The notes below the pieces were generated by a model, which did not search any database, had not been told where the DNA came from, and saw only the letters and a list, made by a program, of their open reading frames with translations. From positions 1-38,410 of IMG/VR virus record IMGVR_UViG_3300050120_000110: DNA of 38,410 nucleotides; one strand, written 5' to 3'. Positions 5,590 to 31,228 of this stretch are shown one piece after another. This DNA comes from a virus. Within the stretch, counting starts at the first letter, position 1. The number at the start of each line of letters is the position of its first letter. A program made the translations under genes and the position numbers.

Positions 5590-7056
5590 TTACTCCGACG
5601 CAGTTCCGGCTGTGTAACCCGGCGAGAACGCAGAACCGGACTCAACTCGCGCCATGTAGGCGTTGTTCAGGATGATCGTGCCGTACATCATTTTCCAAGA
5701 TACCACACGGGTCTGGTTCATCGGGTCCGACTTGTCGGCATCGCGCAGGTAGTGATACTGCACGTTCTCGAGCAAGACCTGACCGTAAGCGTCGGTACCG
5801 AAGAAGTACGTAGGGAACACAGTCACGCCAGTTGCGGGAGCCGAAGGCGGCGTTTGTGCGGCACCAACGCCGGTCAGAACCACCGTAGAGCCGGACGCCA
5901 GTTGCGTTGCCATACCAGCCAGAGGGCCGGTCGATGGGCCGGACGCAGACACCGCCAGATTCGTCGGCGTCGCAGAGGTGCCGATATAGACGTTGAACAC
6001 AAATCCGGTCAGAGTCGGCAGCGTGATGCTGATCGAACCCGTAGCCCCCGTGGTCACAGTGCCGGAACCAACTTGGTAGATTTTCTGTTCCACCGAAGTT
6101 TGAGCCGGAGACGCAGTGACTTGCAGGAAATACGTCGCTGCGGCCAGTTGCCCACCCGTGGTCGCCGGAGTTCCGTTACCCACCGTCGCAACACCCGTCC
6201 AGTACGGAATCATATTGGTTTTGCAGAACCGGGTGCCCCCCCATTCGCCAATGTCGTTGTTGTACAGACGATCGATATCGCTGTATGACCACGCGGTGGC
6301 GATGGTGGCGTTTTGACGCAAGTCCTGAGTCACAAGCGGATGCACCAGCGCCACATAATGCGGCATGGCGCTGGGCTTCTTGCTCATGTTCTTATAAGCG
6401 TTCGCGTCTTCCATCATGTCCACGCGCTCATCGCCGTTGAACAGAGGTGCGCCAAATGTTTCCAGAGAACCGACAATCTTGCCGATTTCCATAGGACTCA
6501 TCACGTCAGCCGCAACAAGCGCGGCGCGGTTGGCCTTGCCGTTGGCGTAATTGACCTGCGTTGCCGTGGTCAGGATGTTGAACACATTGCGCTCAACGGT
6601 TTCCGGTTGCTGAATGGCGATCAAACGAATCGCCTGTTTGAACAGGGGATGCTTGATGGTCATGTCGGCCACATCGGTGACTCGAACCAGATCGCCCCAT
6701 TGTTGCGCTTGGGCGCTGACTTGGGCAATCGTGATCGCCTCACCGGCAGCGGCCACACCTTCAGAGAGCGGCGAAAACGGCAAGGGAAGACGTTCGTAAC
6801 GAGTCGCGGTGTACGTAACACCGGCATTTTTCTCGATTCGAAGCGGTTGACCGAACTGATAAGCAACCAATTGACGCTGAGCGATTCGAAGCACGGCCTC
6901 TTGAATGTGTAATTCAATATCGTTCGCAATCGTTTGATTGTTCGGACCGGGGGAGTAATTCGTCAGCCCCGGATAGAGTTTCTCCATTTGGGCAACGAGC
7001 CAACTGGCACCGATAATGATGGCGATGACAGCGAGTGACAGCAAAAGGTATTTCAT
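5590..7056 (-). CDS. Major capsid protein, N4 gp56-type, with Ig-like insertion
   Basis: This 488-aa protein forms the capsid shell. The HK97-fold core of the N4 gp56 family is seen from about residue 40: a long helix (ELHIQEAVLRIAQRQLVAYQ), IRLIAIQQPETVERNVFNIL, HYVALVHPLVTQDLR, and the C-terminal VVSWKMMYGTIILNNAYMAR. Residues about 289-409 are a Thr/Gly/Ser-rich block that interrupts the core and looks like an Ig or fibronectin-like surface domain. Residues 2-22 are a hydrophobic leader (YLLLSLAVIAIIIGASW), unusual for a capsid protein. The start at 7056 is preceded by AGGAT; an internal ATG at 6987 would remove the leader but has no clear ribosome-binding site. It follows the scaffold gene by 8 bp. 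Confidence 0.92.
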   Translation of the reverse strand: MKYLLLSLAVIAIIIGASWLVAQMEKLYPGLTNYSPGPNNQTIANDIELHIQEAVLRIAQRQLVAYQFGQPLRIEKNAGVTYTATRYERLPLPFSPLSEGVAAAGEAITIAQVSAQAQQWGDLVRVTDVADMTIKHPLFKQAIRLIAIQQPETVERNVFNILTTATQVNYANGKANRAALVAADVMSPMEIGKIVGSLETFGAPLFNGDERVDMMEDANAYKNMSKKPSAMPHYVALVHPLVTQDLRQNATIATAWSYSDIDRLYNNDIGEWGGTRFCKTNMIPYWTGVATVGNGTPATTGGQLAAATYFLQVTASPAQTSVEQKIYQVGSGTVTTGATGSISITLPTLTGFVFNVYIGTSATPTNLAVSASGPSTGPLAGMATQLASGSTVVLTGVGAAQTPPSAPATGVTVFPTYFFGTDAYGQVLLENVQYHYLRDADKSDPMNQTRVVSWKMMYGTIILNNAYMARVESGSAFSPGYTAGTASE

Positions 7057-7064
7057 GATTTATC

Positions 7065-7835
7065 CTAGATTCTGATATTTTCCAGCCGCCTCTCGCGCTT
7101 TTCAGCCTCTGACAGTCTACCACCACCCGACGATGAAACGTCGGATCGTGCGCCCGGAGTTGTTGCGCGAGTTGCGGAACCTGATTTTGTGGATTTCACT
7201 TCGGATGATTTAAGCTTTCCATCCAGCATGTCTTTGCCGACCAGGATAGCCAAAAGGTTCTCCCGTGGCGCATTGTTACCCCGTGATCGGAGTTCGGTCA
7301 GCATGGTTTCAACACGATCCTTGTACGCGGCAAACAGTTTTGGCTTTGATGCCTGCAACTGACTGAACGCGGCCTTGTCGGTCATGTCTTGCGCTGTGAA
7401 CAACGTGTTCTGAGAGATTGATCGAGCTTCCCGCGCCGCCCGGTTGGCATTGATGGCATATTTCTGCCAATCGTTCGCCTCGGGGTTGCGCAAGACTTCT
7501 TCCTCTTGCTGCCAGATTCGTTGTTCCTCACTCGGTTGCGCAGGGCTTGCCGGTTGACGCCGCGCAGCTTCAAGCTCGGCCCGAGCCGTAGCCAGTTGCC
7601 GTTCGGCTTCCTGTGCGCGACTGCGCGCAGCCTGCATGTCCCGTTGATACCGTGTGAGCGGCTTTGGTTCGGGGTCTTCCGCAGGTTCCTCGGGCTCATC
7701 GACCGATTCATCCTGAGTTTCCTCGGGCTCATCGACCGATTCATCCTGAGTTTCCTCGGGAATCGGATCATCGTCAGGTTCAATACACGCCGACAACCGT
7801 TTGACCAACCAATCAAGTAAAAGCGATTTCCACAT
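7065..7835 (-). CDS. Scaffolding-like protein
   Basis: This 256-aa, mostly helical and highly charged protein lies just upstream of the capsid gene. After a short amphipathic N-terminus (WKSLLLDWLVKRLSA) comes an acidic block with a duplicated ETQDESVDEPE unit, then a coiled coil (about residues 70-110, RDMQAARSRAQEAERQLATA). The C-terminus is basic (LSEAEKRERRLENIRI), the usual capsid-binding end of scaffolds. Position, charge pattern and lack of a fold motif support a scaffold. I chose the ATG at 7835 because GGAG lies 6 bases upstream. An ATG at 7847, 1 bp after the metallopeptidase stop codon, would add four residues. Confidence 0.75.
   Translation of the reverse strand: MWKSLLLDWLVKRLSACIEPDDDPIPEETQDESVDEPEETQDESVDEPEEPAEDPEPKPLTRYQRDMQAARSRAQEAERQLATARAELEAARRQPASPAQPSEEQRIWQQEEEVLRNPEANDWQKYAINANRAAREARSISQNTLFTAQDMTDKAAFSQLQASKPKLFAAYKDRVETMLTELRSRGNNAPRENLLAILVGKDMLDGKLKSSEVKSTKSGSATRATTPGARSDVSSSGGGRLSEAEKRERRLENIRI
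7686..7760 (-). repeat. 33-bp tandem repeat in scaffold gene
   Basis: A 33-bp unit occurs at 7686-7718 and exactly again at 7719-7751, with a 9-base partial third copy at 7752-7760. It encodes the duplicated acidic ETQDESVDEPE segment and is in frame, so copy-number change would alter only the length of the acidic arm. Confidence 0.9.
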
Positions 7836-7848
7836 TTCCATCTCCATG

Positions 7849-8262
7849 TCAGGTTACGCCGGACAGCGATTCGGAGGCCCCCGCCTCACGCGATTTAGTT
7901 CGTGACGTGAACTGCTCGATAACTTTGATCCGCTCGGCGGTAGCGGGATGCATATTCCCACCTTTGTCGAAGCGAGATAATACCTTAATTAATGCGCCGC
8001 CATAGCCGAGTTTGGCCGCAAATAGGTCGGCTTCAAACTCTTGCTGGTGGCACAGTCGTTTCATCCAAGCGGGAAACATTAACGCCAGCGCCCGCCATTC
8101 ACTGTGATGATTTTCACAGTGATACAACTCATGCGCAATGACGGCCTGTTGCTCGACGCTCGAAAGCTGACAAAACAAATTACTGACATAGATACGCTTC
8201 CACCAGAAAAAACTGGCGGAAGCAGCTACGGTATTTCGTTTTGTAACTTTGACTTTAAGCAT
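7849..8262 (-). CDS. M48-type zinc metallopeptidase, candidate prohead protease
   Basis: This 137-aa protein has the zincin signature HELYH (residues 44-48), with Glu45 as the expected catalytic base. A second-helix EFEAD (75-79) supplies the likely third zinc ligand Glu75. HPATAERI (105-112) matches the HPxxxxRI element of M48 peptidases. It lacks the membrane segments of HtpX/Ste24, so it is a minimal soluble M48 domain. It sits between portal and scaffold genes, where tailed phages usually encode the prohead maturation protease, and no serine-type prohead protease is visible elsewhere. I infer cleavage of scaffold and/or capsid leader during maturation. The fold call is strong; the role is contextual. 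Confidence 0.8.
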   Translation of the reverse strand: MLKVKVTKRNTVAASASFFWWKRIYVSNLFCQLSSVEQQAVIAHELYHCENHHSEWRALALMFPAWMKRLCHQQEFEADLFAAKLGYGGALIKVLSRFDKGGNMHPATAERIKVIEQFTSRTKSREAGASESLSGVT

Positions 8263-8267
8263 TATGG

Positions 8268-8510
8268 TTAGACACCTGCGGCTTTTAGCCTGGCGTGAAC
8301 TTTCGCCAGATCAGGAGCAGCTCCCGCCGACTGATTGGCGATCACAACTCCCGTTGCCGCGTTCAATCGTTTATCGAACGCGGCTTCTTCAATCTGAGCG
8401 CCATTAATGGATACCGGCAACGGTACAGCTTTAGCCTCAAGCGTTTGCAGGCGCTTGGCAATAACCTCAGGGTCGATTTGGCTGGATTGTGAAAAATCAT
8501 GAGTAATCAT
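8268..8510 (-). CDS. Small orphan between portal and metallopeptidase
   Basis: This 80-aa protein is not recognised. It is helical and Ala-rich, with a charged N-terminal helix (IDPEVIAKRLQTLEAKAVPL) and a C-terminal helix (DLAKVHARLKAAGV). The ATG lies next to the portal stop, and the metallopeptidase begins 5 bp after this gene's stop codon. Position suggests a head assembly or protease accessory role, with no direct evidence. Confidence 0.7.
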   Translation of the reverse strand: MITHDFSQSSQIDPEVIAKRLQTLEAKAVPLPVSINGAQIEEAAFDKRLNAATGVVIANQSAGAAPDLAKVHARLKAAGV

Positions 8511-8512
8511 TA

Positions 8513-10690
8513 TTAGCCCCTACCCGGTTGGCCCGGCATTTGATCGGATTGTATAGCCCCCGGCGGCTGTTGCATAGGCCGACCTGGAGCGGGTTGTGCA
8601 CCGGGACGCGGCATTCCGGCAACGCCCGGTCCCGCGCCTCCCGGAACTCCCGGCGCCCCCTGTGGCGGAGGCATCGCGGCTTGCCTCTTTTTCTGTAATG
8701 CCTGCATATGCGCCTGCATATGGGTTCGCATCATGCCCGTCGGATCCCCAGTCGCTTGCGCGGACTGCTGATGAACCTGAATATGCTGCAAGTCGTCATC
8801 CGCCTCGTGCACATCGGCGTGAATGCCGTTTGTAATCATTTCGTCCTCAATTTCAGGAGGAACTGAATATTTATTTCTATCATCAATCAGAATCTGATTC
8901 GCCAGTTCCGCCCCGAATACGTTGTCGGTGAGCATCTGCAAGATTGGGGTAATGTCCAGGCGCCTACCGTTAAGCTGCTGTGGCGGAATACCCCTAAGCA
9001 CGTTCATCGTGGCGATTTGCTGCTGCATGCGCTGCATATTCATCACGAACGTGGTTCCGGTCCACTGGAAGAAATAGCGCTCGCCCCACTGCTGCGGCGG
9101 AATTTGCTGCATTGCGGCACGAACGCCAATATCCCCCAACGTCAGGACCGTAATATCGTCATCGCGGAACTGGGCATCGTATTCAAAGAACCGTTCCATC
9201 AATGGGTTCAGGATTTCTTCCTCAAACCGTTCGGCATTGTCTGTGATCGACACAGACTGTTCCTGTTGCTGCGCCCCCATAGCGTTGGCGTTCTTACGCC
9301 CGGAAGGCATTTGCCCCATCATCATGGGGTTAACGTCCAGCGATTCGTGAATTTGAGCCTTGATCGAGCCGCACATCGCCACGCTGTCTTTCCACAGGGC
9401 GGGAAAGCTGGTGAATTTAGTACTGTTCGGGTCTACCGGCCACACGGCGGCAAGACCGAAGACCATCATCGCGTAGTTGGGGTTTTTCTCTGGATCAGTC
9501 ATGACCACAGGCAGCAACGAATACATCGCGCTGTCTTGACCCATGTTCCAGAAGTCGTTCAGGTTCCATTGTAGGAACTTTACAGCGTCTACTTTCGACT
9601 TACCGTTGAACGATCCGCTGATTCGATCAACGGGCGCAGAAATAATGGATCGTTTCTGCCCCCACTGCGGGGCTTTGATAATTCCGAGAATTTCCTTTTC
9701 ACCCGCGAAATAGATATCCGCGAGTGATTTCTTGCCCTTTTCAAATTCCACATAGGCTTGCGCCCAGTAGATCAAAGCGTACTTGAAAGTCCCTTCGGTA
9801 CGAATCCCCGCATCCGAAGTTCGTTTTTTCTGAGGATTGATCTTTTCCGTACCCTTTCGGTCGGTCATCCATTCGGACAGTTCACTTTCGTCGTCGTCCG
9901 CTAAGATAAAAACACCCTCGTCCACCATCTTTTGGATAGCGGCTTTCGACATGCGAAGCTTTAGACACGAAATGTCCGCGTTATCAATATTGTTACAAGT
10001 TGGAGGAATAACGACCAAATCCTCAGTTGCAAAGTCGGAAATATCCGGACCCTCGACAAGAATTTCCTCGTCTTTTTCCTCGTCAACTTCTTCGGTCGGA
10101 TCTTGAACCTCAACTTCAGAACCCTCGACAGTATTCAAAATGGGATTTCGCCGAACGACGCCGGATATGTTCCGATAGCTTCGCTTCCAATCCATGCAGA
10201 TATTCCACTGGCCTGTCACATCTCCCGCCAACAAGATGGATCGACAAACTGATTTCAGTTTGGTTGTACGGATGTAATGCTCAAGCAGCGCCAGTTGCGG
10301 GCCGGGTTCCTGATTGTCCGATCCTACTGCTTCCACATGGCTATATTTTGTCGGAAACAGTTGCTTGAGCGTTCGCTTGGCCCTTGCGGTAATCGCGTCT
10401 CTCACAGCGGGGATATAGCATTTCGAGTTCCCCGCATACATTGCGTTATCATCAGGCTCGGCATTGAAAATCTTCCAATACTCTTCAAGGGCTTCGTTCG
10501 CCTCTTCCCGGTTTTCATACGCCTTACAAATCGTCGGATACATTTTCTCGACGTGCATGTAAACGTCGGAGTTGACCTTATCCGCCCAGTTCTCGATATC
10601 CTTGGGCTCTTCCTTATCCTTGGAAACGACGGACGGGTCCTCAGCCTGGGGTTTACCCTTGATGCCTCGAAGTTTTGATTTTTTTGCCAT
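8513..10690 (-). CDS. Portal protein
   Basis: This 725-aa protein forms the DNA-entry vertex of the capsid. The N-terminal half has the portal-type pattern of an acidic helical start, then DAITARAKRTLKQLFPT and an aromatic-rich stem/wing region (YWAQAYVEFEKGKKSLADIY). The C-terminal about 110 residues are disordered and rich in Gln, Pro, Gly and Met, as in large P22/N4-like portals. Size and location directly after the terminase support the call. The start is the ATG at 10690, five bases after the stop of a 28-aa gene. An in-frame TTG at 10765 would read across that small gene and is rejected. No strong Shine-Dalgarno is seen, so coupling to the upstream small gene is likely. Confidence 0.88.
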   Translation of the reverse strand: MAKKSKLRGIKGKPQAEDPSVVSKDKEEPKDIENWADKVNSDVYMHVEKMYPTICKAYENREEANEALEEYWKIFNAEPDDNAMYAGNSKCYIPAVRDAITARAKRTLKQLFPTKYSHVEAVGSDNQEPGPQLALLEHYIRTTKLKSVCRSILLAGDVTGQWNICMDWKRSYRNISGVVRRNPILNTVEGSEVEVQDPTEEVDEEKDEEILVEGPDISDFATEDLVVIPPTCNNIDNADISCLKLRMSKAAIQKMVDEGVFILADDDESELSEWMTDRKGTEKINPQKKRTSDAGIRTEGTFKYALIYWAQAYVEFEKGKKSLADIYFAGEKEILGIIKAPQWGQKRSIISAPVDRISGSFNGKSKVDAVKFLQWNLNDFWNMGQDSAMYSLLPVVMTDPEKNPNYAMMVFGLAAVWPVDPNSTKFTSFPALWKDSVAMCGSIKAQIHESLDVNPMMMGQMPSGRKNANAMGAQQQEQSVSITDNAERFEEEILNPLMERFFEYDAQFRDDDITVLTLGDIGVRAAMQQIPPQQWGERYFFQWTGTTFVMNMQRMQQQIATMNVLRGIPPQQLNGRRLDITPILQMLTDNVFGAELANQILIDDRNKYSVPPEIEDEMITNGIHADVHEADDDLQHIQVHQQSAQATGDPTGMMRTHMQAHMQALQKKRQAAMPPPQGAPGVPGGAGPGVAGMPRPGAQPAPGRPMQQPPGAIQSDQMPGQPGRG

Positions 10691-10695
10691 GAAAT

Positions 10696-10782
10696 TTACG
10701 AGTTGGGCCACGTGCCTGTGATTACGGAGAGCATTATGAAAATGAATACTCCTGTCATCAGCCAAGTGACGAAGGGTCCCAT
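10696..10782 (-). CDS. 28-aa membrane peptide between terminase and portal
   Basis: This tiny gene encodes a 28-aa peptide (starts MGPFVTWLM, core GVFIFIMLSV, ends TGTWPNS) with one predicted transmembrane helix. Its ATG overlaps the terminase stop as TAATG, and its own TAA is five bases before the portal ATG, so it fills the interval exactly. That packing, the absence of any other gene there and the start/stop coupling argue for translation. The role is unknown; it may act in the membrane, or its translation may serve to couple terminase and portal expression. Confidence 0.65.
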   Translation of the reverse strand: MGPFVTWLMTGVFIFIMLSVITGTWPNS

Positions 10783-12773
10783 TATCGACCCGGCAAAGCC
10801 GACAAATATTTGGTTCCGTACGAATTCACAGCGTTAGCCTTTATGGTTTCCGTCGCATTCTCAAGCCTATCGACAGCATATGTCAAGGCTTCAAGCCCCT
10901 CGATCAACGTTTTGGCCGGTCCCCGCTCAGGTTCCGAACCACGTTCACCGCCCGATTTAGTCGGCCAATTGTAACCCTGAGACAGGGCCTGTAGGGTTGA
11001 CCGTGCGTTCTCATCAACCTGGAACATGCGCCGACCCCGCAATTCCGTTCGGATCATGGGGCTCAGTGCACCCCGAGACATGACCGAATGCTCGGCGGAC
11101 TGTGCGGGATATCCCGCCGTTTTAAGAGCTGATACCAAAGGATTTCTACCTACTTGGTCGAATATATCAGCTGGAATCCAGGCGCTCACACGCTTACCCG
11201 GCCACATTGCGCGGATCAACGCGGCTATGTCCGGTATGGCGTCCATGGGCATCAGGGGACTAACCCAATCAGCCAGCACCGTCAGGTACCGACCGTTAAC
11301 CGATGCGAGAACAGCTGTGGTTTCCGTTCCTGTCGCGTTGCATCCAAGAAGTAAGCCATCACTTCTCAATGGTTCGTAACCAGACACAATATTCTGATCG
11401 GAGAAATCCCCGTAGATTGGAACTCCGGAAAACACCCGAAGTGCATACGCCAACGCGTTCAGACAGTCTCGCTTGCCGGTTGGGAAGTTCAGAATCTGGC
11501 TTATCAACGTCTGGTGCGCGGCGCGTCCGCCCACCAAAATAATATCCCCCGCCATGAAAAACGGACGTAACCCCATGATGAACGCGGCCTTATCCCGGTC
11601 CTGAGGCGCGTTGATTGGCCTGATATCTAGGTGCTGCCCGGTCATCAGGCTCATAGCCCGAATCGGTTGCAGCAGCCAATCATCCAATGAATTCTTTTCG
11701 ATCACAACTCTAGCATCGTCGTGCCGCTTGGACATTGTGAACGCCCCGGCAACAATCTCATCCGGTTGCCAGTATTCCGCCCCGGACTGATGAACGTAAA
11801 TCCTCGTCCCCATCTTGCTGACCGTTACGTGTCCGGTCTGGTCGGACTTCTTCACTTCAACCGTTCGGGCCGGATCAACTATGACTACACGGGGGGAATA
11901 ACTCGCAGGGGGCACGTCTTGAAAGCGGAGCATGTCCTCAGTGAAGGGTTTACCCTGAGCCCCGGACGCGACGAGCATGTATTCCTGCATGAATTCCCGC
12001 AGCATCCCCTCCTGTGAATACTGGTCGCGCTTGCGCCTAACCCAATCCATTGGATAACGTTCGGGCCATAGCGATTCGGCCAACGGATCGTCAATGTCTC
12101 GATCACACAGTGGGAACCTTCCGTGCGTCCATGACGAGGAGGCTGCCGCCCGGTTTAACAAGCAATCGTCCGCCAGGGGAGTCCCCGTCATACGGATCTT
12201 CCCTAAATCCTTATCCATGGCGGGCATAAGTTCGAGGTGAATTTTCTTCCAGTTCCGGTCAACCGTATTCGTATCCCGAACCAATTCCTTGTTCTCGATA
12301 TCGTCAAGATACGCCCGGTCGGGCCGCATGTCATGATGTTTATAGCCCCGGATTTCCTCTTCCCATCCATGGGCTTCGATCAAAACACCGTTCTTAAGGA
12401 GAATCTTGTTCTCAGACCAAGTACCGCCTTTTTGCGTTCCAAACAGGTTCAACACACGCATGTTGGTCACAAGCTCATGCTTCATTGCCTCAATACGCTG
12501 ACACGCCTTGGTATATGTTTCCCCGAAAATCAAGCAGTATTTGAAATTACCGAAGCACGCTTCCATCAGCAAAAACTCTTCGCTGAGCGTCGTCTTAGCA
12601 CCTTCCCGGAAAGCCTCGATCACAACCAGTTCATCGGAGCTGCGCCACATGTCCATGATCTGAATATGAAACGCTGGAGAAGCCTGACGGTGGCGATGCT
12701 CGAACAACATTGCCGACCCAAGGGCACGATCCTCATTTATGGATCTTAGGATTGCTTCGTTTGAGAGTGCCAT
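10782..12773 (-). CDS. terL: Terminase large subunit
   Basis: This 663-aa protein is the packaging motor ATPase and nuclease. A Walker A-like motif reads FREGAKTT (residues 55-62), of the T7 gp19-like variety. Walker B with catalytic acid is RAYLDDIE (153-160). An ATPase coupling motif follows at MTGTPL. The RNase H-like nuclease domain begins near VVIVDPART, and a second acidic site is likely at ARVVIEKN. Length is in the normal range. It is the second gene of the late operon, just after the 70-aa orphan. The small subunit candidate lies at the other end of the same operon (29302-29790). Confidence 0.92.
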   Translation of the reverse strand: MALSNEAILRSINEDRALGSAMLFEHRHRQASPAFHIQIMDMWRSSDELVVIEAFREGAKTTLSEEFLLMEACFGNFKYCLIFGETYTKACQRIEAMKHELVTNMRVLNLFGTQKGGTWSENKILLKNGVLIEAHGWEEEIRGYKHHDMRPDRAYLDDIENKELVRDTNTVDRNWKKIHLELMPAMDKDLGKIRMTGTPLADDCLLNRAAASSSWTHGRFPLCDRDIDDPLAESLWPERYPMDWVRRKRDQYSQEGMLREFMQEYMLVASGAQGKPFTEDMLRFQDVPPASYSPRVVIVDPARTVEVKKSDQTGHVTVSKMGTRIYVHQSGAEYWQPDEIVAGAFTMSKRHDDARVVIEKNSLDDWLLQPIRAMSLMTGQHLDIRPINAPQDRDKAAFIMGLRPFFMAGDIILVGGRAAHQTLISQILNFPTGKRDCLNALAYALRVFSGVPIYGDFSDQNIVSGYEPLRSDGLLLGCNATGTETTAVLASVNGRYLTVLADWVSPLMPMDAIPDIAALIRAMWPGKRVSAWIPADIFDQVGRNPLVSALKTAGYPAQSAEHSVMSRGALSPMIRTELRGRRMFQVDENARSTLQALSQGYNWPTKSGGERGSEPERGPAKTLIEGLEALTYAVDRLENATETIKANAVNSYGTKYLSALPGR

Positions 12774-15893: not shown

Positions 15894-16211
15894 ATGCTTC
15901 AACTTCTACCCAACCTGATGGCAAAAATGAAAAATGATCACTTTCTAGCTGCACTCGATTGTGAACCCTCATTTGCACGTACATCCGTAGAACTTGAGCT
16001 TATGCGAAGGCTCGATGAATTGGCCGCTAACGAACTGCCCGAAGACATCGAAGAGCGACTTAAAAAAACCTACGAGGTTGACATGGAACAAAGTGAATTT
16101 AGAGCGAATTTGATCCGTGAAATACAGCTATTGTGTGAACAACCGGGTAGTAAAGAAGACTTAATTTCTGCAATTAATAAATCTGTGTCTAACAGTTACG
16201 TCGAACTTTAA
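15894..16211 (+). CDS. Acidic helical orphan
   Basis: This 105-aa protein is not recognised. It is largely helical and acidic (SVELELMRRLDELAANELPE, then EERLKKTYEVDMEQSEFRAN). The ATG at 15894 has AAGGAAAA upstream; an in-frame start at 15828 would overlap the preceding gene by 56 bp and is rejected. Its 3' end overlaps the convergent PrimPol-helicase gene by 4 bp, and no intrinsic terminator separates them. Confidence 0.65.
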   Translation: MLQLLPNLMAKMKNDHFLAALDCEPSFARTSVELELMRRLDELAANELPEDIEERLKKTYEVDMEQSEFRANLIREIQLLCEQPGSKEDLISAINKSVSNSYVEL

Positions 16212-18478
16212 CCTACCGCCCGAAGCAATCGATCCTCTTGGTCAGCGGTATACGCTCTGCCGACCTCAGGACCTGCCATAGACCGCGTTCGATGATCTGG
16301 TTTAACGTATAGAGTACTCTTTGCCGCTTCGGGGCCTACAGGGTTGTTTACGCGACCCTTGGCTAGCCCCGGATGCGGCTTGTAGCCCAATCCCTCCAGC
16401 ATATCCTTACGCTTGTTGCGGGGGTATTGCCTGTCGCCTCCGACCTCACGCAGAAGCAAGTCAAGGTAGTGTGAGCTGATCCAGCCGCCACGGAAACCGA
16501 CTTGATCCTGTTCGATGGCGTTGATAATCTCTTGCTCCACGCGTCCGGCGCTTTCCTCGATGGCCGCGCCAGTGCTACTTGTGATCGGCGCACGATGGCA
16601 GTTCACGGCGGGATTTAGCGCATCGGGAATCGCATAGCTGCGCAAGAAGTCATTCACAATCGCGAAACCATCAGCATTGAGCCAGCGGTACAGATCGGGG
16701 AAATACTCTCCGCCCATACCGTCCCGAACGATATCTGATTCTGATTGCTGGTTAGTGAAAAAGATTGCAAATTTACGTCCGTTGATGGTCTTTCGTACAG
16801 CGTCTTTAGGGTTGCATGTAATGAGAAAGTTCGCGCACACTGCGCGTCCGGTTTTAGCTGTACCTTTGCCTTCAATCTCAAGCCAGTCATTGGTAATCAT
16901 GGCTGTGAGCGATTCGATAATCTCTGTGTGCTTGTCGCTGTTAAAAATATCCTCTACGGCAATAAATATCCGGTTTTCCAGCCAGTCGTTAAACCTGCTG
17001 GCAAGCTCCATAGGCTTGGCCGTGTGGCTGTGTTCGCGGCCTATCGCGCTTGTAAGGCAACGGGACAATAGAGTCTTGCCGTTGCCCTCACATCCTTGAA
17101 TCACCGGGCACCATTGAAACTTCACGCCCGGGTGTTGCACTACAGCGGCCATGTACGCCAGCAGAATAGCGCGGTCATTGGCGTCAGGTAGCAGTCGCCC
17201 GATATGTTGCAGGAAAGGCGATGCGTCGCCCGATGCGCGTGGCGTGTTGATTGGCACGTACGTATTGACGTAATCGCTGTTTCCCGATTCCCACATTTCG
17301 CCGGGCGCCTTTGTTGGCTTAAATTCCCCGAAGTTAGCGCGTGGGAAGTTGTAGGCTTGCGACTGGGTATAGCACTCCCACGCGCTGCGCGTTGTCTTAC
17401 CGTTCGTGGCGTCAAGCACGAAGGTATACCCACCGTACATCACATCGAAACGGGCTTTATCGAACGTGTGACCGCCAGGGGTCAGGATATGGTTGCTGCC
17501 TGAAATGTAGGTGCAGCCTTTGAACAGTTCAACTTGCGCGGCGGGGTGTAGATATCGGTCGGTTTGTTCGTCGCTATCCGCCACAGGAGTGGGTCGTTTG
17601 TCCCGGCATACGTCGCGCTGTTGTCCAACCGCATTGAGAATCGTGCGCGGTAGATAGTCGTCTCGGTCCCATTTATCACGAACCAGCTTAGAGCGAAGCA
17701 TGAGATTGCGCATGCGCTCACAGTTCTTACCTGTCCAGAATGCCAGGTGTTGCGCTAGGGCCGCGTCCGGTGCACTGTGGTCATATCCCCTTGCATCCTC
17801 GGGCCACGCTCGGCACAGGGCGGGAGTCACGGCATCCCACATATCGGCGAATGTTGCTTTTCCACCAAAGGCGCCAGCGGACGACTTGGAATTACAGGCT
17901 CGGCGGATCAGATCGTCGTCGTCTACCGGGCCGTTCCATTCGGCTACGGGGGCGGTTGTCCAAGCGGTGGGTGTAACGTCTGCGGATGACGGGGCAAACC
18001 ACCTGCGTATAACCTCGCCGATTCGTGGCTCTGTGACTGACGCATCGCCCATCGAACCGGGAAGACCCAGTGCGATGTATCGCTTGTCATGATACAGCTC
18101 TAACCCACTTCCGGACGGTCCCCGGCTCGCATGCGCCGGAATAGCGCCAGAACCCCATAGATGCCAGCCTTGCCCGCTCTGACTGACTTCAAGCGCGCAG
18201 GATGGCAACATGGCGCGAATCTCAAGCGCCAGTGCTGACCACGCGCCATCAACCGCGCAATGATCCACATCGAGACACCAGAACGGATCATTTGCCGTTA
18301 GAACGAATCCCACGCGGCCATCACCAGCCAGATACGCGGTCAGATAATCAGTCCAAACCTCAGGGTCGTGCGGATTGCATGGCATTCCGGTGCGCCAGTC
18401 GGTTGGAACTTTGTCGACATTGTGAGTGATGAATTGTTTGTATGCGCCAAGCGGTGCAAGTGCTGGCGGTAGTGTCAT
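16208..18478 (-). CDS. Primase-polymerase / SF3-like helicase
   Basis: This 756-aa replication protein probably primes and unwinds DNA at the fork. The N-terminal PrimPol domain has the catalytic WCLDVDHC (DxD near residues 70-72), the SGQGWH motif (about 101-106) and a following YIALGLPGS strand. The C-terminal helicase has Walker A GCEGNGKT (about 462-469), Walker B-like IFIAVEDIF and a sensor/Asn strand FLITCNPKD. This is the bidomain layout of NrS-1-like and DUF5906-type phage primase-helicases. The ATG at 18478 overlaps the upstream stop (ATGA); a GTG at 18487 would add three residues. It is the last gene of the leftward replication operon. Confidence 0.85.
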   Translation of the reverse strand: MTLPPALAPLGAYKQFITHNVDKVPTDWRTGMPCNPHDPEVWTDYLTAYLAGDGRVGFVLTANDPFWCLDVDHCAVDGAWSALALEIRAMLPSCALEVSQSGQGWHLWGSGAIPAHASRGPSGSGLELYHDKRYIALGLPGSMGDASVTEPRIGEVIRRWFAPSSADVTPTAWTTAPVAEWNGPVDDDDLIRRACNSKSSAGAFGGKATFADMWDAVTPALCRAWPEDARGYDHSAPDAALAQHLAFWTGKNCERMRNLMLRSKLVRDKWDRDDYLPRTILNAVGQQRDVCRDKRPTPVADSDEQTDRYLHPAAQVELFKGCTYISGSNHILTPGGHTFDKARFDVMYGGYTFVLDATNGKTTRSAWECYTQSQAYNFPRANFGEFKPTKAPGEMWESGNSDYVNTYVPINTPRASGDASPFLQHIGRLLPDANDRAILLAYMAAVVQHPGVKFQWCPVIQGCEGNGKTLLSRCLTSAIGREHSHTAKPMELASRFNDWLENRIFIAVEDIFNSDKHTEIIESLTAMITNDWLEIEGKGTAKTGRAVCANFLITCNPKDAVRKTINGRKFAIFFTNQQSESDIVRDGMGGEYFPDLYRWLNADGFAIVNDFLRSYAIPDALNPAVNCHRAPITSSTGAAIEESAGRVEQEIINAIEQDQVGFRGGWISSHYLDLLLREVGGDRQYPRNKRKDMLEGLGYKPHPGLAKGRVNNPVGPEAAKSTLYVKPDHRTRSMAGPEVGRAYTADQEDRLLRAVG

Positions 18479-19023
18479 ACGACGCACCTCGCAGCAAGAT
18501 CAACGAGCCAACGGGCTAAAGCCGGCGGTGTTTTTTCTCGTTCGTTTGTTGGCAGCTGTGGGCCTTTTCCGGAACGAATACGATGGGTATGGGGGGCGAG
18601 ACATATTTCAAATTTTGGAGTTTTCATAGGCTCACAACCAACAACATACAACCATGTTGGCTTTTTTGCCTTATGGCCAAACCAACATTGATTAATTTCA
18701 CATGCCCAACCGCCAAAAGTATCGGGGCGTTGCCCCGGTTTGGGAAGATGTTGATCGTCCCACAACGTTGATCGTGCTGGATGTTCCAAAACGCCGCCGA
18801 CACGTTGGACTTGCCTTACTGCAAATCGGGCTAAGTCTTTTTCGTCCGGTCGAGGTTTCGCAAAATGTCTTAGACCACCCCACGCGCGGCAAGGAGGGTG
18901 CGCCACAATCGGTAGATCACCAACATACAATCGCGCGTCCCTCTCTATGTCCCAGACGTCACACTCAGGAAACGTTTTGTAGATGCTGTCGGCGCGGGCG
19001 AACAATACAGCGACAGCTTTCAT
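18475..19023 (-). CDS. PCRxWG protein, distant cytosine-methyltransferase-like
   Basis: This 182-aa protein has CDVWDIERDAR, then IVAHPPCRAWGGLRHFAKP, GGVLEHPARS, GWACEINQCWFGH and a TWLYVVGC strand. Such proteins are frequent in phages and prophages. The PPCRxWG motif recalls motif IV (PCQ) of C5-cytosine methyltransferases, but the glycine-rich SAM motif I is not obvious and the protein is about half the usual length. It may be a reduced methyltransferase-fold enzyme or a DNA-modification accessory factor. The gene overlaps both neighbours by ATGA in the replication operon. Confidence 0.55.
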   Translation of the reverse strand: MKAVAVLFARADSIYKTFPECDVWDIERDARLYVGDLPIVAHPPCRAWGGLRHFAKPRPDEKDLARFAVRQVQRVGGVLEHPARSTLWDDQHLPKPGQRPDTFGGWACEINQCWFGHKAKKPTWLYVVGCEPMKTPKFEICLAPHTHRIRSGKGPQLPTNEREKTPPALARWLVDLAARCVV

Positions 19024-20120: not shown

Positions 20121-20329
20121 TTCGACCCCTTTGTCTCTACCATCGGTGGAACATAATCCATGCGACTTCGTTGACGCACTTTAGATTGCTCCGCATCCCG
20201 GTCAGCCGGTGCATTGAGGGCGCGATCGGCTGCGATGGCTGCGCGGGCAAGTTTCCTGCCATATCCTCCTGCCCCCCATGCATGCTCTTTCAAAATGGCA
20301 TCGATCTGGCCATCCGTAAGTTCTTTCAT
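20117..20329 (-). CDS. Small orphan (MKELTDGQID family)
   Basis: This 70-aa protein opens with MKELTDGQIDAILKEHAW and contains LARAAIAADRAL, a pattern common among small phage proteins of unknown role. The C-terminus is charged and probably disordered. The ATG overlaps the helicase stop (ATGA). Confidence 0.65.
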   Translation of the reverse strand: MKELTDGQIDAILKEHAWGAGGYGRKLARAAIAADRALNAPADRDAEQSKVRQRSRMDYVPPMVETKGSK

Positions 20330-22812
20330 AATTCAATCCTTTGTTTAAGTTCATCCGCTTCTTTACGCCCAAGTGTTTGGGCAGTTCCTATATCGATTCC
20401 ATACTTAAAATAAAACCGCCTCTGCGCCATGGATATGGTGTCGCCCTGCGCGGTACGCTGACCGCCCCATAACGCCATGGCTTCACGCAACTGAGCCTGC
20501 GCTTCTTGCCTTTCGCGGTGCCGCGCCTTGAGCGAAGCTTGAATCAATTTATCGGGATGAAACGCGGGCGGGGCGTCAATCTCGCCACGCAGCTTGGCCA
20601 GTGCTTCAGGGGTCAACTCGTACAGATCACCGTCAACTTCTTCGGGTAGGGAGCGACCTGCGGGTTCCGGCGCAAAACCGCAATAGGGGCAAGTTGCCAA
20701 TACTCGCTCGTACGCGCCAGTACACTCAGGACAGGTCCGCACCGGAATAACTTGTTCGACGGTTGCGCTGGTTCGACGCTCACGACGGTCCAGTGTCCAG
20801 ACCCTGGGGGCATCGGGTAATCCATGGCGGTGAACGTTCCCAACGTGGTCGATAATGATTGCATGTAACTTTCCTTCCATGGGACGCAACGAACGTCCGA
20901 ACTGTTGACAGAATAACCCGTAGCTTTGCGTCGGCCGCGCCATGCTGATAACTTCGATGGCTGGAAGGTCGAACCCTTCACCAAACAGATCAACGTTCAC
21001 CACTTGCAACAATTCACGTCGCCTGAGTCTTTGCAGGATCGAACGACGTAAACCGTCAGGTGTCTTCGCGCTAACCATTTCGGCGGGTATCCCGTGATGC
21101 CGAAATGCTGCCGCCATCTCAGTTGCGCTTTCTACATCCACAGTAAAAGTTATCCCCAACTTACCCGGCGCAATGCGTTGATAATGTTGCACCACGTCAC
21201 CGACGATATGGCTCTTATGAACGGCATGCGCGAGTTTGGGCGGAGAAAAGTCGCCCGAAGCGCTGAGCGGTACATCGCGCAGATCAATGTCAGAGGGCGG
21301 TGCAAATATCCGGTACTCAGTCAAATATCCATCCGCGATAAGCTCTCGCATCGTCGGCCCTTGCACCATCGTGTCCATAAGGCCATCGGCGTGACGACCG
21401 AGTCCGTTACCGTCAGCTCGGCACGGCGTGGCGGTAACGCCTAACATGCGGGCTTGAGGAAACATGGACGCCGCAGCACCCCATTTGTTTTTCTTCAAGA
21501 CGTGATGGCAGTTGTGCACAACTATTCCGTTTGCGACGTAAGTGTGATGCTCATCAACTTCAAAATTGTAGACATAACCGCCCTCACCACAACCTCCGGG
21601 TGTTCCAATATTTCGGTGTTCGTAAATCTCAACGTCGTCCAACCCAGTCCATTTAAAAACTTCTCCTTTTTCGCATCTTTCAATGAACCTTTCCCGGAAT
21701 GCGTCGAACCGTCCGCCTCCAGCGCTAGCCTCAGTTTCCAGTTCCCCATATCCGGCTTGTACACTGGCGGGAAACCGCTCCCGTCCCCGATTGTGTGTCC
21801 GGTCCGAATGTTCGGTTGAGGCACAAAACCCAACGCGGAAAACATGATCGACAAAGTTTCTTCGGCCAAAGTTGCTGGTTTTCCATTCCCCCCTTGAACT
21901 TTCGGCTTGTGCCCAATCTCCCGTAGACGGTTCGTCATTTTTGATACCGATCTCGGATCGTGCATTGGATTTTTCTTGCGCATGCGGTCTGACGCATATT
22001 CCAGATTTGTCTTCGTCGCAGTTTCGGATGAAATCCTTTTTCGGTATTCCGTAGAGCATTCCCGACAGCAATACCCCCGACCCGTCTTCGCGTAAAAAGC
22101 CATCAATGGTGCGTTCCGAATGACGGGCGCCCCGCAAATAAAACAGTTCATCAAAAAGTACCTCGTCTGTGCGTTCAAGTTCGTCGGCTCTGATCCAGCC
22201 CCGTTTGGTAAAAAAGGGATGGTTCGGTGTGCAGTTAAGTTCATGATGCGTTATTCTAATACGCACCATTCGTTTCGGTTGTGCTTTTTTGAACAAACGA
22301 ACTACTTTTCGTTCGACAAACTCCCCCGAAACTTCGTTGAAGGCGGTCACTGTATCGCCGACGCGAACGTCTTCAATAGGTCTCCCGTCAATGAGCGTAC
22401 CTGCGATAAAGCACTCATCCTGAACAACTAAAGATACCGATTGCGTCCAGGCGTTGGGTTCCATGCGCACCAGCGTGTCAACACCAGCCACAGCAACGCG
22501 ATTGCCTGGATCAACGTAATTTCGGCGCAGTTCGGCCAGGTGCTGCGTGGTGCAGGTATGGGCGACCGCCTTCGGCCCGACGATTCTGTGACGGACACCG
22601 TTACGGGCCAGCGCAAGACTAATCTGCACGACAAGTTCCTGACGATGCGCGATAGCTACCGACGCGCCCGGCTCACGGGCTATGATGTCGCTGAAAATCA
22701 CAGTCTTACCGCCGCCTGTAGGGAGTGTCAGCAACACGTTGCGATGACCCTGTGACCACGCGTTTAACACGCCGTCACGGCAATCTATCTGATAGGGACG
22801 AAGTTGTGTCAT
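20326..22812 (-). CDS. SF2 DExH helicase precursor with intein
   Basis: This 828-aa precursor is an SF2 helicase. It has MTQLRPYQ (Q-like motif), Walker A LPTGGGKT, a DE-CHH Walker B box split by an intein, GVTATP (motif III), FGEGFDLPAIEVI (motif V), QQFGRSLRP (motif VI), and a CPEC/CPYC zinc finger near the C-terminus. Removing the 301-aa intein gives a 527-aa protein of normal size and restores DECHH, so splicing is required for ATPase activity. The ATG at 22812 overlaps the 33-aa gene stop as ATGA; an ATG at 22878 would overlap that gene and is rejected. It probably acts in replication or restart. Confidence 0.9.
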   Translation of the reverse strand: MTQLRPYQIDCRDGVLNAWSQGHRNVLLTLPTGGGKTVIFSDIIAREPGASVAIAHRQELVVQISLALARNGVRHRIVGPKAVAHTCTTQHLAELRRNYVDPGNRVAVAGVDTLVRMEPNAWTQSVSLVVQDECFIAGTLIDGRPIEDVRVGDTVTAFNEVSGEFVERKVVRLFKKAQPKRMVRIRITHHELNCTPNHPFFTKRGWIRADELERTDEVLFDELFYLRGARHSERTIDGFLREDGSGVLLSGMLYGIPKKDFIRNCDEDKSGICVRPHAQEKSNARSEIGIKNDEPSTGDWAQAESSRGEWKTSNFGRRNFVDHVFRVGFCASTEHSDRTHNRGRERFPASVQAGYGELETEASAGGGRFDAFRERFIERCEKGEVFKWTGLDDVEIYEHRNIGTPGGCGEGGYVYNFEVDEHHTYVANGIVVHNCHHVLKKNKWGAAASMFPQARMLGVTATPCRADGNGLGRHADGLMDTMVQGPTMRELIADGYLTEYRIFAPPSDIDLRDVPLSASGDFSPPKLAHAVHKSHIVGDVVQHYQRIAPGKLGITFTVDVESATEMAAAFRHHGIPAEMVSAKTPDGLRRSILQRLRRRELLQVVNVDLFGEGFDLPAIEVISMARPTQSYGLFCQQFGRSLRPMEGKLHAIIIDHVGNVHRHGLPDAPRVWTLDRRERRTSATVEQVIPVRTCPECTGAYERVLATCPYCGFAPEPAGRSLPEEVDGDLYELTPEALAKLRGEIDAPPAFHPDKLIQASLKARHRERQEAQAQLREAMALWGGQRTAQGDTISMAQRRFYFKYGIDIGTAQTLGRKEADELKQRIEL
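21511..22413 (-). mobile_element. Intein inserted in the DE/CHH ATPase box
   Basis: The intein spans precursor residues 134-434 (ATG at 22812). Block A is CFIAGTLIDG with nucleophile Cys1. Block B is ELNCTPNHPFFT with the TxxH pair. Block F is YVYNFEVDEHHTYVANG and block G is IVVHN followed by Cys+1. All residues needed for standard splicing are present. The 158 or so residues between the N-domain (ending near DELFY) and C-domain are polar, lack a hydrophobic core and show no LAGLIDADG or HNH motif. They are the other-frame reading of a nested endonuclease gene. Confidence 0.93.
21522..22151 (-). CDS. Homing endonuclease nested out of frame in the intein
   Basis: This 209-aa protein is read in the +1 frame relative to the intein and lies wholly inside it. 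It has an N-terminal zinc ribbon (CFIC near 3-6, CCREC near 28-32), a NUMOD-like KKNPMHDPRSVSKMTNRLR linker, and a Vsr/EDxHD or DUF559-like nuclease core: KPDMGNWKLRLALEADGSTH (Asp134, Glu145, Asp147, His151), Asp159, then GWTTLRFTN. The ATG at 22151 has GAGGT about 10 bases upstream and coincides with the point where the intein N-domain ends. The stop is 9 nt before the last intein codon boundary region. An upstream ATG at 22244 lacks a good site. It probably cleaves intein-less helicase alleles. Confidence 0.85.
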   Translation of the reverse strand: MNCFICGAPVIRNAPLMAFYAKTGRGYCCRECSTEYRKRISSETATKTNLEYASDRMRKKNPMHDPRSVSKMTNRLREIGHKPKVQGGNGKPATLAEETLSIMFSALGFVPQPNIRTGHTIGDGSGFPPVYKPDMGNWKLRLALEADGSTHSGKGSLKDAKKEKFLNGLGWTTLRFTNTEILEHPEVVVRAVMSTILKLMSITLTSQTE

Positions 22813-22910
22813 GAAGTAAGTTGGATGATGGCGATACCCATGAGTGCGACCACTAACGATCCGCACGCGAGCAGCCATGCTACGGCGAGCGCTATGAAAA
22901 AGTAGTCCAT
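22809..22910 (-). CDS. 33-aa membrane peptide upstream of helicase
   Basis: This short gene encodes a 33-aa peptide starting MDYFFIALAVAWLL and ending IAIIQLTS, almost entirely hydrophobic, with one or two membrane passes. Its TGA overlaps the helicase ATG (ATGA), and it begins 4 bp after the stop of another small membrane peptide gene. This head-to-tail packing fixes the helicase start and supports translation. Function unknown. Confidence 0.6.
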   Translation of the reverse strand: MDYFFIALAVAWLLACGSLVVALMGIAIIQLTS

Positions 22911-29884: not shown

Positions 29885-31228
29885 TTAGAACTCCAGCCCC
29901 TTGGCGTATCCAAAGGCATGCAACTGGGGCAATTGCTTGCGCATGCGTCCGGACCCTATGTCCAAACGATACATCGGATTGTTCGGAATTTTAACCTTAT
30001 CCACGGCCCCGTAGGCGGTCCTGCGAGCCGCTGTGATCGACCTGTCTGTGCCAGTCACAACCATGGTGTAATCTCCCGCCGTAACGTATCCTGGCAGGTC
30101 TACAACCTTGTCGCCGACCATGCACGGAGCTTCGCCCAACATCACTTCGGATAGGTGAATATGGAGCATATCTTCCGCCCCACGAATTGGTATACCGCAC
30201 AGGTCTTTGTTCGTGATACGCGAGTACGGAAAGTCGGGCAGAGCCATCAGTACGCTAACGCAAATCTCTCCCTCAACCATTTCAATCGTGTCTTGGCCGT
30301 TAAGGCCGTCTAGCATCCATTGGATCGGGTCTTCATTCTTGACGTGGGCCGTAACGTTGTGCTTGGTCGGCCAGCCGTCCCGCATCGTCCATTCCATAGG
30401 CCACGGGCCATCTTTGTCGATGATGCAGTTGTTGTCGATGTATCCGCAATAACCCAACTTATCGAGCGTCGGGCCGATGGGCAACAGGACTTCGCGGGCG
30501 AGACGGGAATTCTTGGTCACACGGCTCAAAGTGCCCATTTCGCCAGTCGCAACGCCCAAGTCGCCATCCATGAGTTTCTTGTATTCCCAATTCTCATAGA
30601 ACCACTGCGACCACCCACCCGGGCCGTACCATCCGCCAACCGCCATTTCCACGCCGTACTTGCGCTCTTGCAGAATGAATCCGTCTTTTCGAGCCGACTT
30701 GCGCAGCGCTTCGTTTTTCTTCCAACGAGACAGCATGTACACCAGATCGGCGGGATCTCCCGCCACGTAGGACAACGCCTTATCGGCGTCACCGGACGGC
30801 TTGGAAACGAGATATTCGGGATGTTTCTTGACAAACGCGATCGCGTCGTCATAGTCAAAAAACGACTTCGATTCCATGATCTTGATGCCCGCAGCCTTCA
30901 TTGCGGCCTGACCTTTGGCACGGTTCAATTCAAGCTGCGCGGCCTCTTGCGATGGCGCTAGTATGGGGTATCCCTGTGCTCGATACGGATCGAGCATATC
31001 GAGCCAGCGGGCATTGTCAGGCAAGTAAATCAGGTCCGCCCAGTCGAGCCACTTGGTTCGCAACTCGTTGAAGTCAGTGATCTTGTCGATCATCCCACGT
31101 CCGGCAATTCTTGGCGAACCGTCAGCATGGGGCTTGTCATACCACTTGACTTGCCAGCCCGCCATTTTGGCCCGCATAGCCATGTCCAGGCAGTTACTGG
31201 CGTTGTCGATTATTAGGAGACGTTTCAT
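29885..31228 (-). CDS. PurD-like ATP-grasp protein
   Basis: This 447-aa protein resembles phosphoribosylamine-glycine ligase (PurD): an N-terminal Rossmann-like start (RLLIIDNASNCLDMAMRAK), the ELNRAKGQAAMKAAGIKIME entry helix, the ATP-grasp strand YLVSKPSGDADKALSYV, GFILQERKYGVEMAVGGW, the LMDGDLGVATGEMGT loop and the Mg/ATP site YCGYIDNNCII with MEWTMRDGWPT. It diverges from cellular PurD in the first domain. It lies inside the late operon after the ejection proteins. Purine synthesis is one option; ligation of an amino acid or amine to another substrate, such as a modified base, is another. Confidence 0.75.
   Translation of the reverse strand: MKRLLIIDNASNCLDMAMRAKMAGWQVKWYDKPHADGSPRIAGRGMIDKITDFNELRTKWLDWADLIYLPDNARWLDMLDPYRAQGYPILAPSQEAAQLELNRAKGQAAMKAAGIKIMESKSFFDYDDAIAFVKKHPEYLVSKPSGDADKALSYVAGDPADLVYMLSRWKKNEALRKSARKDGFILQERKYGVEMAVGGWYGPGGWSQWFYENWEYKKLMDGDLGVATGEMGTLSRVTKNSRLAREVLLPIGPTLDKLGYCGYIDNNCIIDKDGPWPMEWTMRDGWPTKHNVTAHVKNEDPIQWMLDGLNGQDTIEMVEGEICVSVLMALPDFPYSRITNKDLCGIPIRGAEDMLHIHLSEVMLGEAPCMVGDKVVDLPGYVTAGDYTMVVTGTDRSITAARRTAYGAVDKVKIPNNPMYRLDIGSGRMRKQLPQLHAFGYAKGLEF

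Follow-up and report, generated by a model that had tools for sequence, protein, structure and literature searches.

Does a small zinc peptidase mature the head of the phage described here? The question is raised by an open reading frame in a viral record of 38,410 bases, the whole of which was analyzed and is called the window below. A preliminary description of this DNA had placed an M48-type metallopeptidase of 137 aa with HELYH, EFEAD and HPATAERI motifs between portal and scaffold, had seen no other protease and, on the view that a prohead protease is usual at this place in tailed phages, had suggested that a zincin may perform capsid maturation. The features of the head operon are as follows.

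10782..12773, minus strand: terminase large subunit (phrog_38, E 1.5e-50).
8513..10765, minus strand: portal, head-tail adaptor family (phrog_332, E 2.6e-13; 54% identity to the L005 portal).
8268..8510, minus strand: ORF of 80 aa separating portal and zincin, with no family match in Pfam, PHROG and NCBIfam scans and no leader.
7849..8262, minus strand: M48-type gluzincin of 137 aa, candidate head leader peptidase (ORF with ATG start).
8119..8133, minus strand: HELYH codons, residues 44-48 (H44 and H48, two zinc ligands; E45, catalytic Glu; all three identical in 85/85 distinct relatives).
8026..8040, minus strand: EFEAD codons, residues 75-79 (E75, probable third zinc ligand, and D79; both in 85/85).
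7927..7950, minus strand: HPATAERI codons, residues 105-112 (P106 and R111 invariant in the alignment of relatives, H105 not).
7065..7847, minus strand: scaffold-like acidic protein of 260 aa, presumed substrate (38% identity to the L004 scaffold).
7785..7847, minus strand: scaffold leader, residues 1-21, ending LSAC before IEPDDD (junction set by profile alignment).
5590..7056, minus strand: major capsid protein (MCP) of the N4-gp56 family, 488 aa, presumed substrate (TIGR04387, 151 bits against a cut-off of 60).
6967..7056, minus strand: MCP leader, residues 1-30, ending LYPG before LTNYS, presumed removed (extra relative to leaderless relatives).

The genes follow one another on the minus strand of the window in the order terminase, portal, 80-aa ORF, peptidase, scaffold-like protein and N4-gp56-type MCP. 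The position claimed for the peptidase was confirmed by this order, with the 80-aa ORF intervening on the portal side. On the plus strand, positions 7849..8262 contain stops in frame. The alignment of relatives to the window portal begins at an ATG at 10690, and an AGGA is found upstream of the ATG of the MCP leader. In this leader (6967-7056, minus strand) about 20 residues form a hydrophobic stretch which is almost transmembrane in character and longer than that of most relatives. Other parts of the window hold a helicase ORF (20326-22878, minus strand; ResIII, phrog_16 helicase) whose residues 173-456 form an intein splicing domain, an NrS-1-like primase-polymerase (16208-18487, minus strand) with matches to NrS-1 polymerase HBD and DUF5906, and a GARS-like ATP-grasp ORF of purine type (29885-31228, minus strand). 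The last is adjoined by three large ORFs without Pfam or PHROG matches (31225-34140, 34141-35430 and 35430-36677), and the four together are possibly a small-molecule or base-modification cluster.

The peptidase was analyzed by profile searches, alignment of relatives and structure prediction. It matched the Pfam profile Peptidase_M48 (PF01435) with 29.2 bits against a cut-off of 20.3; matches to M56, PhageMetallopep and M78 were under their Pfam cut-offs, and the protein was far under the cut-off of the NCBIfam HtpX equivalogs. The AF2 model of the window zincin had a pLDDT of 93, and VIA structural comparison matched it to ZMPSTE24 with a Z score of 9.6 over 107 residues at 2.4 A, followed by BepA (9.0), Ste24 (8.6), BlaR1 (7.3) and the minigluzincin abylysin (6.8), with further minigluzincin scores of 5.0 for a selecase mutant and 4.7 for jannalysin. 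The best PDB match of the model by Foldseek was Ste24 with an E value of 1.2e-3 and none was at 0.001 or below, so that it is the VIA re-alignment which bears the fold claim. The features expected of the M48 family, namely HExxH with a downstream Glu in ExxxD, a profile score above the curated cut-off and the catalytic-domain fold, were all found. The role of E75 as a ligand is one which we assign from knowledge of the M48 family.

A portal scan of viral contigs gave 34 loci, and these together with the loci of the first scan yielded 31 peptidase ORFs of at least 90 aa, 22 of them distinct. The 85 distinct complete peptidases used here came with the peptidase- and MCP-profile scans (best 80 of 118 and best 80 of 522 confirmed loci, respectively); all such counts refer to loci or to distinct sequences and not to independent lineages. 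Residues H44, E45, H48, E75 and D79 were invariant in all 85 distinct complete zincins, as were P106 and R111, and residue 105 was variable (Y in 38, H in 31 and R in 11 of the 85). A chance motif or a dead enzyme was rejected on the retention of the five catalytic-type residues in 85/85. The gene most likely encodes a small M48/gluzincin-type zinc peptidase, predicted to be active from its intact site, and the first claim of the preliminary description stands, on the minus strand. When the window zincin was compared by tblastn with 50,697 phage records no match was obtained, and the zincin of L195 gave one weak match (E 0.05) to the same records.

With respect to other proteases, Pfam scans of the 30 window ORFs (one at E up to 1, the others at E 0.01) identified no other peptidase family, intein/HINT self-splicing domains aside, and at this level the earlier observation holds. 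No Pfam match to a serine-type S78, S80, S49 or S14 domain was obtained in the gene itself or in any of the 30 ORFs, which places the zincin outside those prohead protease families. To expect a prohead protease at this place in most tailed phages was too general a premise: to our knowledge there is none in podoviruses such as P22, T7 and phi29, and the absence of another protease is therefore no argument by itself.

A survey of related portal-scaffold intervals, as had been proposed, found the zincin there in a fixed order of portal, zincin, scaffold and MCP on one strand in 74/74 distinct loci. As would be expected of a prohead protease, the gene lies within the head module, beside scaffold and MCP, in every one of them. 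Among 109 loci with portal and MCP, several of which derive from the same contig, the zincin was present in 107, the exceptions being the distant L007 and L008. In 37 of the 74 loci the zincin overlapped the end of the portal by no more than 8 bases, and in 4 by more (a matter of start choice); in the others the two were apart, by a distance within 50 bases in 1, of 51-700 bases in 8 and of more than 700 bases in 24. A scaffold profile match was obtained in 75/75 distinct loci with zincin and MCP. One presumed relative, L006, was a spurious opposite-strand match inside an unrelated operon and was excluded. In cellular genomes the MCP scan gave matches in three genomes of Paraburkholderia and in a betaproteobacterial bin, all four with zincin, scaffold and MCP leaders; the related head operons of the Paraburkholderia genomes (L194-L196, of which L194 is in P. 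phenoliruptrix LMG 22037 and L195 in P. tropica LMG 22274) are apparently present as prophages. Searches of viral contigs with the MCPs of the two exceptions found no relative for L007 and three for L008, and an MCP search of plasmids returned one distant N4-gp56 record.

The presumed substrates carry N-terminal extensions of one kind. MCP leaders were read from 85 distinct N-termini, two of them from the zincin-less L007 and L008, and in the zincin group the extension consists of a basic start, a hydrophobic stretch and a junction, after which come Val, Leu, Ile or Ala and then T/V-N. Scaffolds have the same kind of extension ahead of their acidic region (leader read by eye), and their resemblance to the MCP is confined to this N-terminal start. 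A score matrix trained on the junctions identified a third protein family, about 170 aa long, which starts in the same way. Its 78 ORFs, distributed over 73 loci, are without exception on the strand of the head operon; no such protein was found in the window. Mean Kyte-Doolittle hydropathy over P12-P3 was about 1.7 in MCP and scaffold alike, and the shortest leaders had 8-9 residues (L135). Junction positions were taken from a pattern for the MCP and from a profile for the scaffold. While the hydrophobicity of P1' in the MCP is imposed by the junction-finding pattern, the profile-placed P1' of the scaffold was V, I, L, A or M in 64/65, a result in keeping with a thermolysin-like preference. 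An AF2 model of the MCP had a pLDDT of 31 and was discarded. Three gut-phage stretches with N4-gp56-type MCPs (L190, L191 and L193), within which no zincin was found, have N-terminal motifs which appear similar to the site of the host protease Prp, such as LFDLQVFA, and in L191 LKKLHTxMFD is common to scaffold and MCP.

For 65 phages the end of the MCP leader was compared with that of the scaffold leader, both in the same phage and across phages. Identities at P1-P3 averaged 2.25 in matched pairs and 1.38 in shuffled pairs over all 65, and 1.90 versus 1.01 when the set was reduced to the 41 junction pairs distinct at P1-P4 (p 2e-4, the lowest value that 5000 shuffles can give), so that capsid and scaffold share a junction motif, although one which is weak in the window phage. 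The excess extended to P5-P8 (1.61 versus 1.09, 41 distinct pairs) and was not seen at P9-P12, the internal control (0.73 versus 0.66, p 0.26). Well-matched examples, MCP first, are FLTLG|VVN and FLTLG|IEP (L060), FSRG|VTN and LSRG|IGE (L055), FRPA|VTN and IRPA|IDD (L147), FESQ|LTN and LECQ|VDG (L053), and LLPG|VTN and LLPG|VDD (L069). The window phage is a poor match, with LYPG|LTN in the MCP and LSAC|IEP in the scaffold. The MCP junction pattern failed in 5/131 loci, and of these five L055 and L057 were restored manually, while L058, L141 and L056 were omitted (L058 and L141 have the same N-terminus as L057, and L056 the same as L055); L062 was also corrected and L194-L197 were added by hand.

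Common descent and exchange of DNA were considered as sources of this match. Pairs in which neither gene has FPG (n=32) gave 1.78 matched versus 0.85 shuffled at P1-P3, so that an ancestral FPG retained in both genes is no explanation. The effect was kept when one phage was drawn per MCP cluster at 95, 90, 85 and 80% identity (40, 31, 20 and 8 clusters; 63 phages), the largest p over 20 draws at 80% being 0.018 for P1-P3 and 0.030 for P5-P8. Identical residues had identical codons in 85/293 cases (29.0%, against 29.5% expected), so that the leaders match at the protein level, and gene conversion of DNA was rejected as the source.

The third protein behaved similarly. A third-family match was obtained in 45/65 phages, 36 of them above the score limit, and 22 distinct triples were compared (the picks in L002, L022 and L184 look misplaced and were kept). 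Against the MCP, P1-P3 identities were 1.64 versus 1.07 (p 2e-4) and P5-P8 was also in excess (p 2e-4); against the scaffold, P1-P3 identities were 1.45 versus 0.93 (p 2e-4), with p 0.033 for P5-P8. One recogniser per phage, evolving with its targets, would be the simplest reading. Partial Mantel tests on the 44/65 phages with all four proteins gave r 0.20 (p 0.037) between junction distance and zincin distance with the other proteins controlled for, compared with 0.165 (p 0.030) for the mature scaffold, 0.150 (p 0.073) for the MCP and 0.055 (p 0.30) for the portal; the simple correlation with junction distance was lowest for the zincin (0.479). These figures do not single out the zincin, as the mature scaffold is nearly as good. 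The covariation indicates a shared recogniser and does not name the zincin as that recogniser.

A wider MCP scan identified sister phages with close MCPs, and zincin profiles obtained no match in the 89 loci searched. Among the zincin-less relatives 38/39 distinct MCPs were leaderless, where the 39 are MCPs of at least 300 aa from loci with a portal match, L186-L193 and loci with a short upstream region lying outside the count. The longest ORF of these MCPs offers no further in-frame start upstream; many open with M[AP][TV]N, and in the alignment their start lies no more than a few residues from the leader junction seen in the zincin group. Their scaffolds are mostly acidic from the start (at some loci no scaffold ORF was found), and the top junction score among them was 5.0 (L224) against a training median of 16.7. 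The single exception, L211, has an MCP with a leader (6932-8347) and a leaderless scaffold (6189-6887), and no zincin or M48 match was found in its incomplete record of 27.9 kb. HExxH matches in L207, L208 and L253 look like out-of-frame or low-complexity ORFs and were rejected as zincins. In a quick tree of 98 MCPs a single branch (SH-aLRT 90) set the 59 zincin-bearing rows apart from the others, L211 being adjacent to this clade; L211 may be an intermediate or a loss. As the zincin-bearing MCPs are on one branch, the co-occurrence of zincin and leader rests on one origin, and repeated change, as read from these sequences, underlies the junction covariation only.

We propose that the phage zincin is a dedicated leader peptidase for head proteins, a candidate role which we judge to be probable. 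The MCP, the scaffold and, in many relatives, the third protein of about 170 aa would be synthesised with N-terminal leaders made of a short basic start, a hydrophobic stretch and, directly before Val, Ile or Leu, a junction such as FPG, SPG, TLG, SRG or RPA. These leaders may gather the head proteins together or keep them ready for assembly, and the zincin would cleave ahead of the hydrophobic residue during head assembly, leaving the MCP with an N-terminus, [VIL][TV]N, close to the natural M[AP][TV]N of the leaderless sisters. The gene, fold, conserved active site, operon order, leaders and junction covariation are computed results, as is the near absence of MCP leaders in zincin-less relatives; from them we infer that the leaders are cut, that the zincin is the cutter, and the exact bond, the timing and the role of the leader before its removal. 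The zincin is put forward as the recogniser since it is phage-encoded, has an invariant active site and adjoins its presumed targets, and by analogy with phage 80alpha. In 80alpha an N-terminal motif also present in ribosomal protein L27 is common to capsid and scaffold (PMC5744158, in excerpt), and the host cysteine protease Prp takes 13 and 14 residues off the capsid and scaffold (PMC5744158; PMC9405229, Table 1; both in excerpt). The suggestion that the zincin takes part in capsid maturation is partly supported, and better than before: its original grounds, position and the lack of another protease, were weak, and in their place stand the active site (85/85), the operon order (74/74) and the covarying leaders, which 38/39 distinct MCPs of zincin-less relatives lack. 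Points against it are the single origin of the zincin group, the poor agreement between the two leaders of the window phage, the MCP leader of L211 in a record where no zincin was found, and the N-terminal capsid motifs of L190, L191 and L193, stretches in which no zincin was found either.

Covariation would also arise if the leaders were never cut. The hydrophobic N-terminal helices of the three proteins could pack together, or on a common partner, and hence coevolve as docking signals, the zincin having some other role in assembly. What covariation needs is a shared partner, not a cut, and it spans P8-P1, longer than many protease sites; the MCP of L211 keeps its leader without a zincin, and the N-terminus of the 80alpha scaffold is essential when its cleavage is not (PMC5744158, in excerpt). 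However, the covarying stretch ends where the native MCP start of the leaderless sisters aligns, the scaffold residue after it is hydrophobic in 64/65, and an invariant active site beside these genes would be left unexplained. We therefore regard uncut docking signals as unlikely, and cleavage by the zincin as the better account.

The leaders could instead be removed by a host protease, as by Prp for 80alpha, the zincin having a different target, and a host enzyme acting on a motif shared by capsid and scaffold is a direct precedent (PMC5744158 and PMC9405229, in excerpt). The junctions, however, vary between phages (FPG, SPG, TLG, SRG, RPA, ESQ) and match within a phage, which suits a recogniser evolving with the phage, and the only cellular matches, three Paraburkholderia and the betaproteobacterial bin, are outside the Prp-bearing groups as these are given in the excerpt of PMC9405229. 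This makes a host protease improbable.

It is also conceivable, if quite improbable, that the leaders are membrane or export signals and that the zincin releases the head proteins or acts like a signal peptidase, in which case cutting would be right and the purpose of head maturation wrong. Several M48 enzymes are membrane proteases, the leaders are basic and then hydrophobic (Kyte-Doolittle about 1.7), and that of the window MCP has a near-transmembrane stretch; yet an AxA-like signal peptidase site is absent, leaders go down to 8-9 residues (L135), and we know of no membrane step for such heads. Finally, that the zincin targets host proteins or other phage proteins, such as a repressor, and occupies the head operon by chance is highly improbable given its fixed place between portal and scaffold in 74/74 distinct loci and the matching substrate-like leaders, even with folds of other roles (BlaR1, IrrE, CapP) in the fold list and a weak PADLOC capP match (E 0.003).

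The wider claim, which we favor by a small measure only, is that in this N4-gp56-type lineage the head is matured by a phage metalloprotease reading a fast-evolving leader code common to MCP, scaffold and often a third protein, and that protease and leaders arose together and coevolve. If true, the zincin would be a separate invention of the head-maturation step. Near relatives which build the same capsid without leader or protease would provide a handle on the purpose of leader removal, the within-phage covariation would provide a set of natural protease-substrate pairs for work on specificity, and the three Paraburkholderia genomes with such loci offer cultivable hosts for tests. Searching for within-genome leader matches on non-homologous head proteins could expose other unrecognised head proteases.

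The head-maturation proteases known to us are serine or cysteine enzymes, and a metallo-type peptidase acting on head leaders would, as far as we know, be the first in any tailed phage. Among the top-ranked results of literature searches, none described a zincin as a prohead protease. In the excerpt of PMC6563490, M48 and prohead both occur, as words for different elements, and that of PMC4936722 gives a 107-aa Peptidase M48 annotated in a Pseudomonas prophage with no mention of a head role. Among enzymes of the same fold, ZMPSTE24/Ste24, BepA and BlaR1 (M56) have HExxH and the downstream Glu in ExxxD in common with the zincin, but M48 catalytic-domain proteins have several hundred aa compared with 137 aa here, and we know of no link between them and virus assembly. 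The minigluzincins (abylysin, jannalysin and selecase MJ1213) are close to the zincin in size, at about 100 aa, and may share its single-domain core, but have low sequence similarity to it (phmmer of the window zincin against MJ1213, E about 0.5). The serine-type prohead proteases (HK97 S78, T4 gp21, the phiKZ/SPN3US type and lambda C) are likewise phage-encoded in the head operon, and N-terminal propeptides occur on the head proteins there too; they differ in having an unrelated fold and catalytic class, and the zincin loci have separate short hydrophobic leaders on the MCP, the scaffold and often a third protein. The likeness to Prp and 80alpha lies in one N-terminal motif on both capsid and scaffold, which here too would be read by a single protease taking a short peptide off each. 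Neither Prp nor its NLQxF|A site was found (window ORFs scanned; the junctions are FPG, SPG, TLG and others). Prp (family C108) is encoded by the host, belongs to the cysteine class and has a site, NLQxF|A, that hardly varies, whereas the candidate described here is phage-encoded and of zinc type, with a junction which varies from phage to phage and agrees within each phage. If this role is confirmed, the process, leader processing of head proteins, is a known one, and what is new is the catalytic class.
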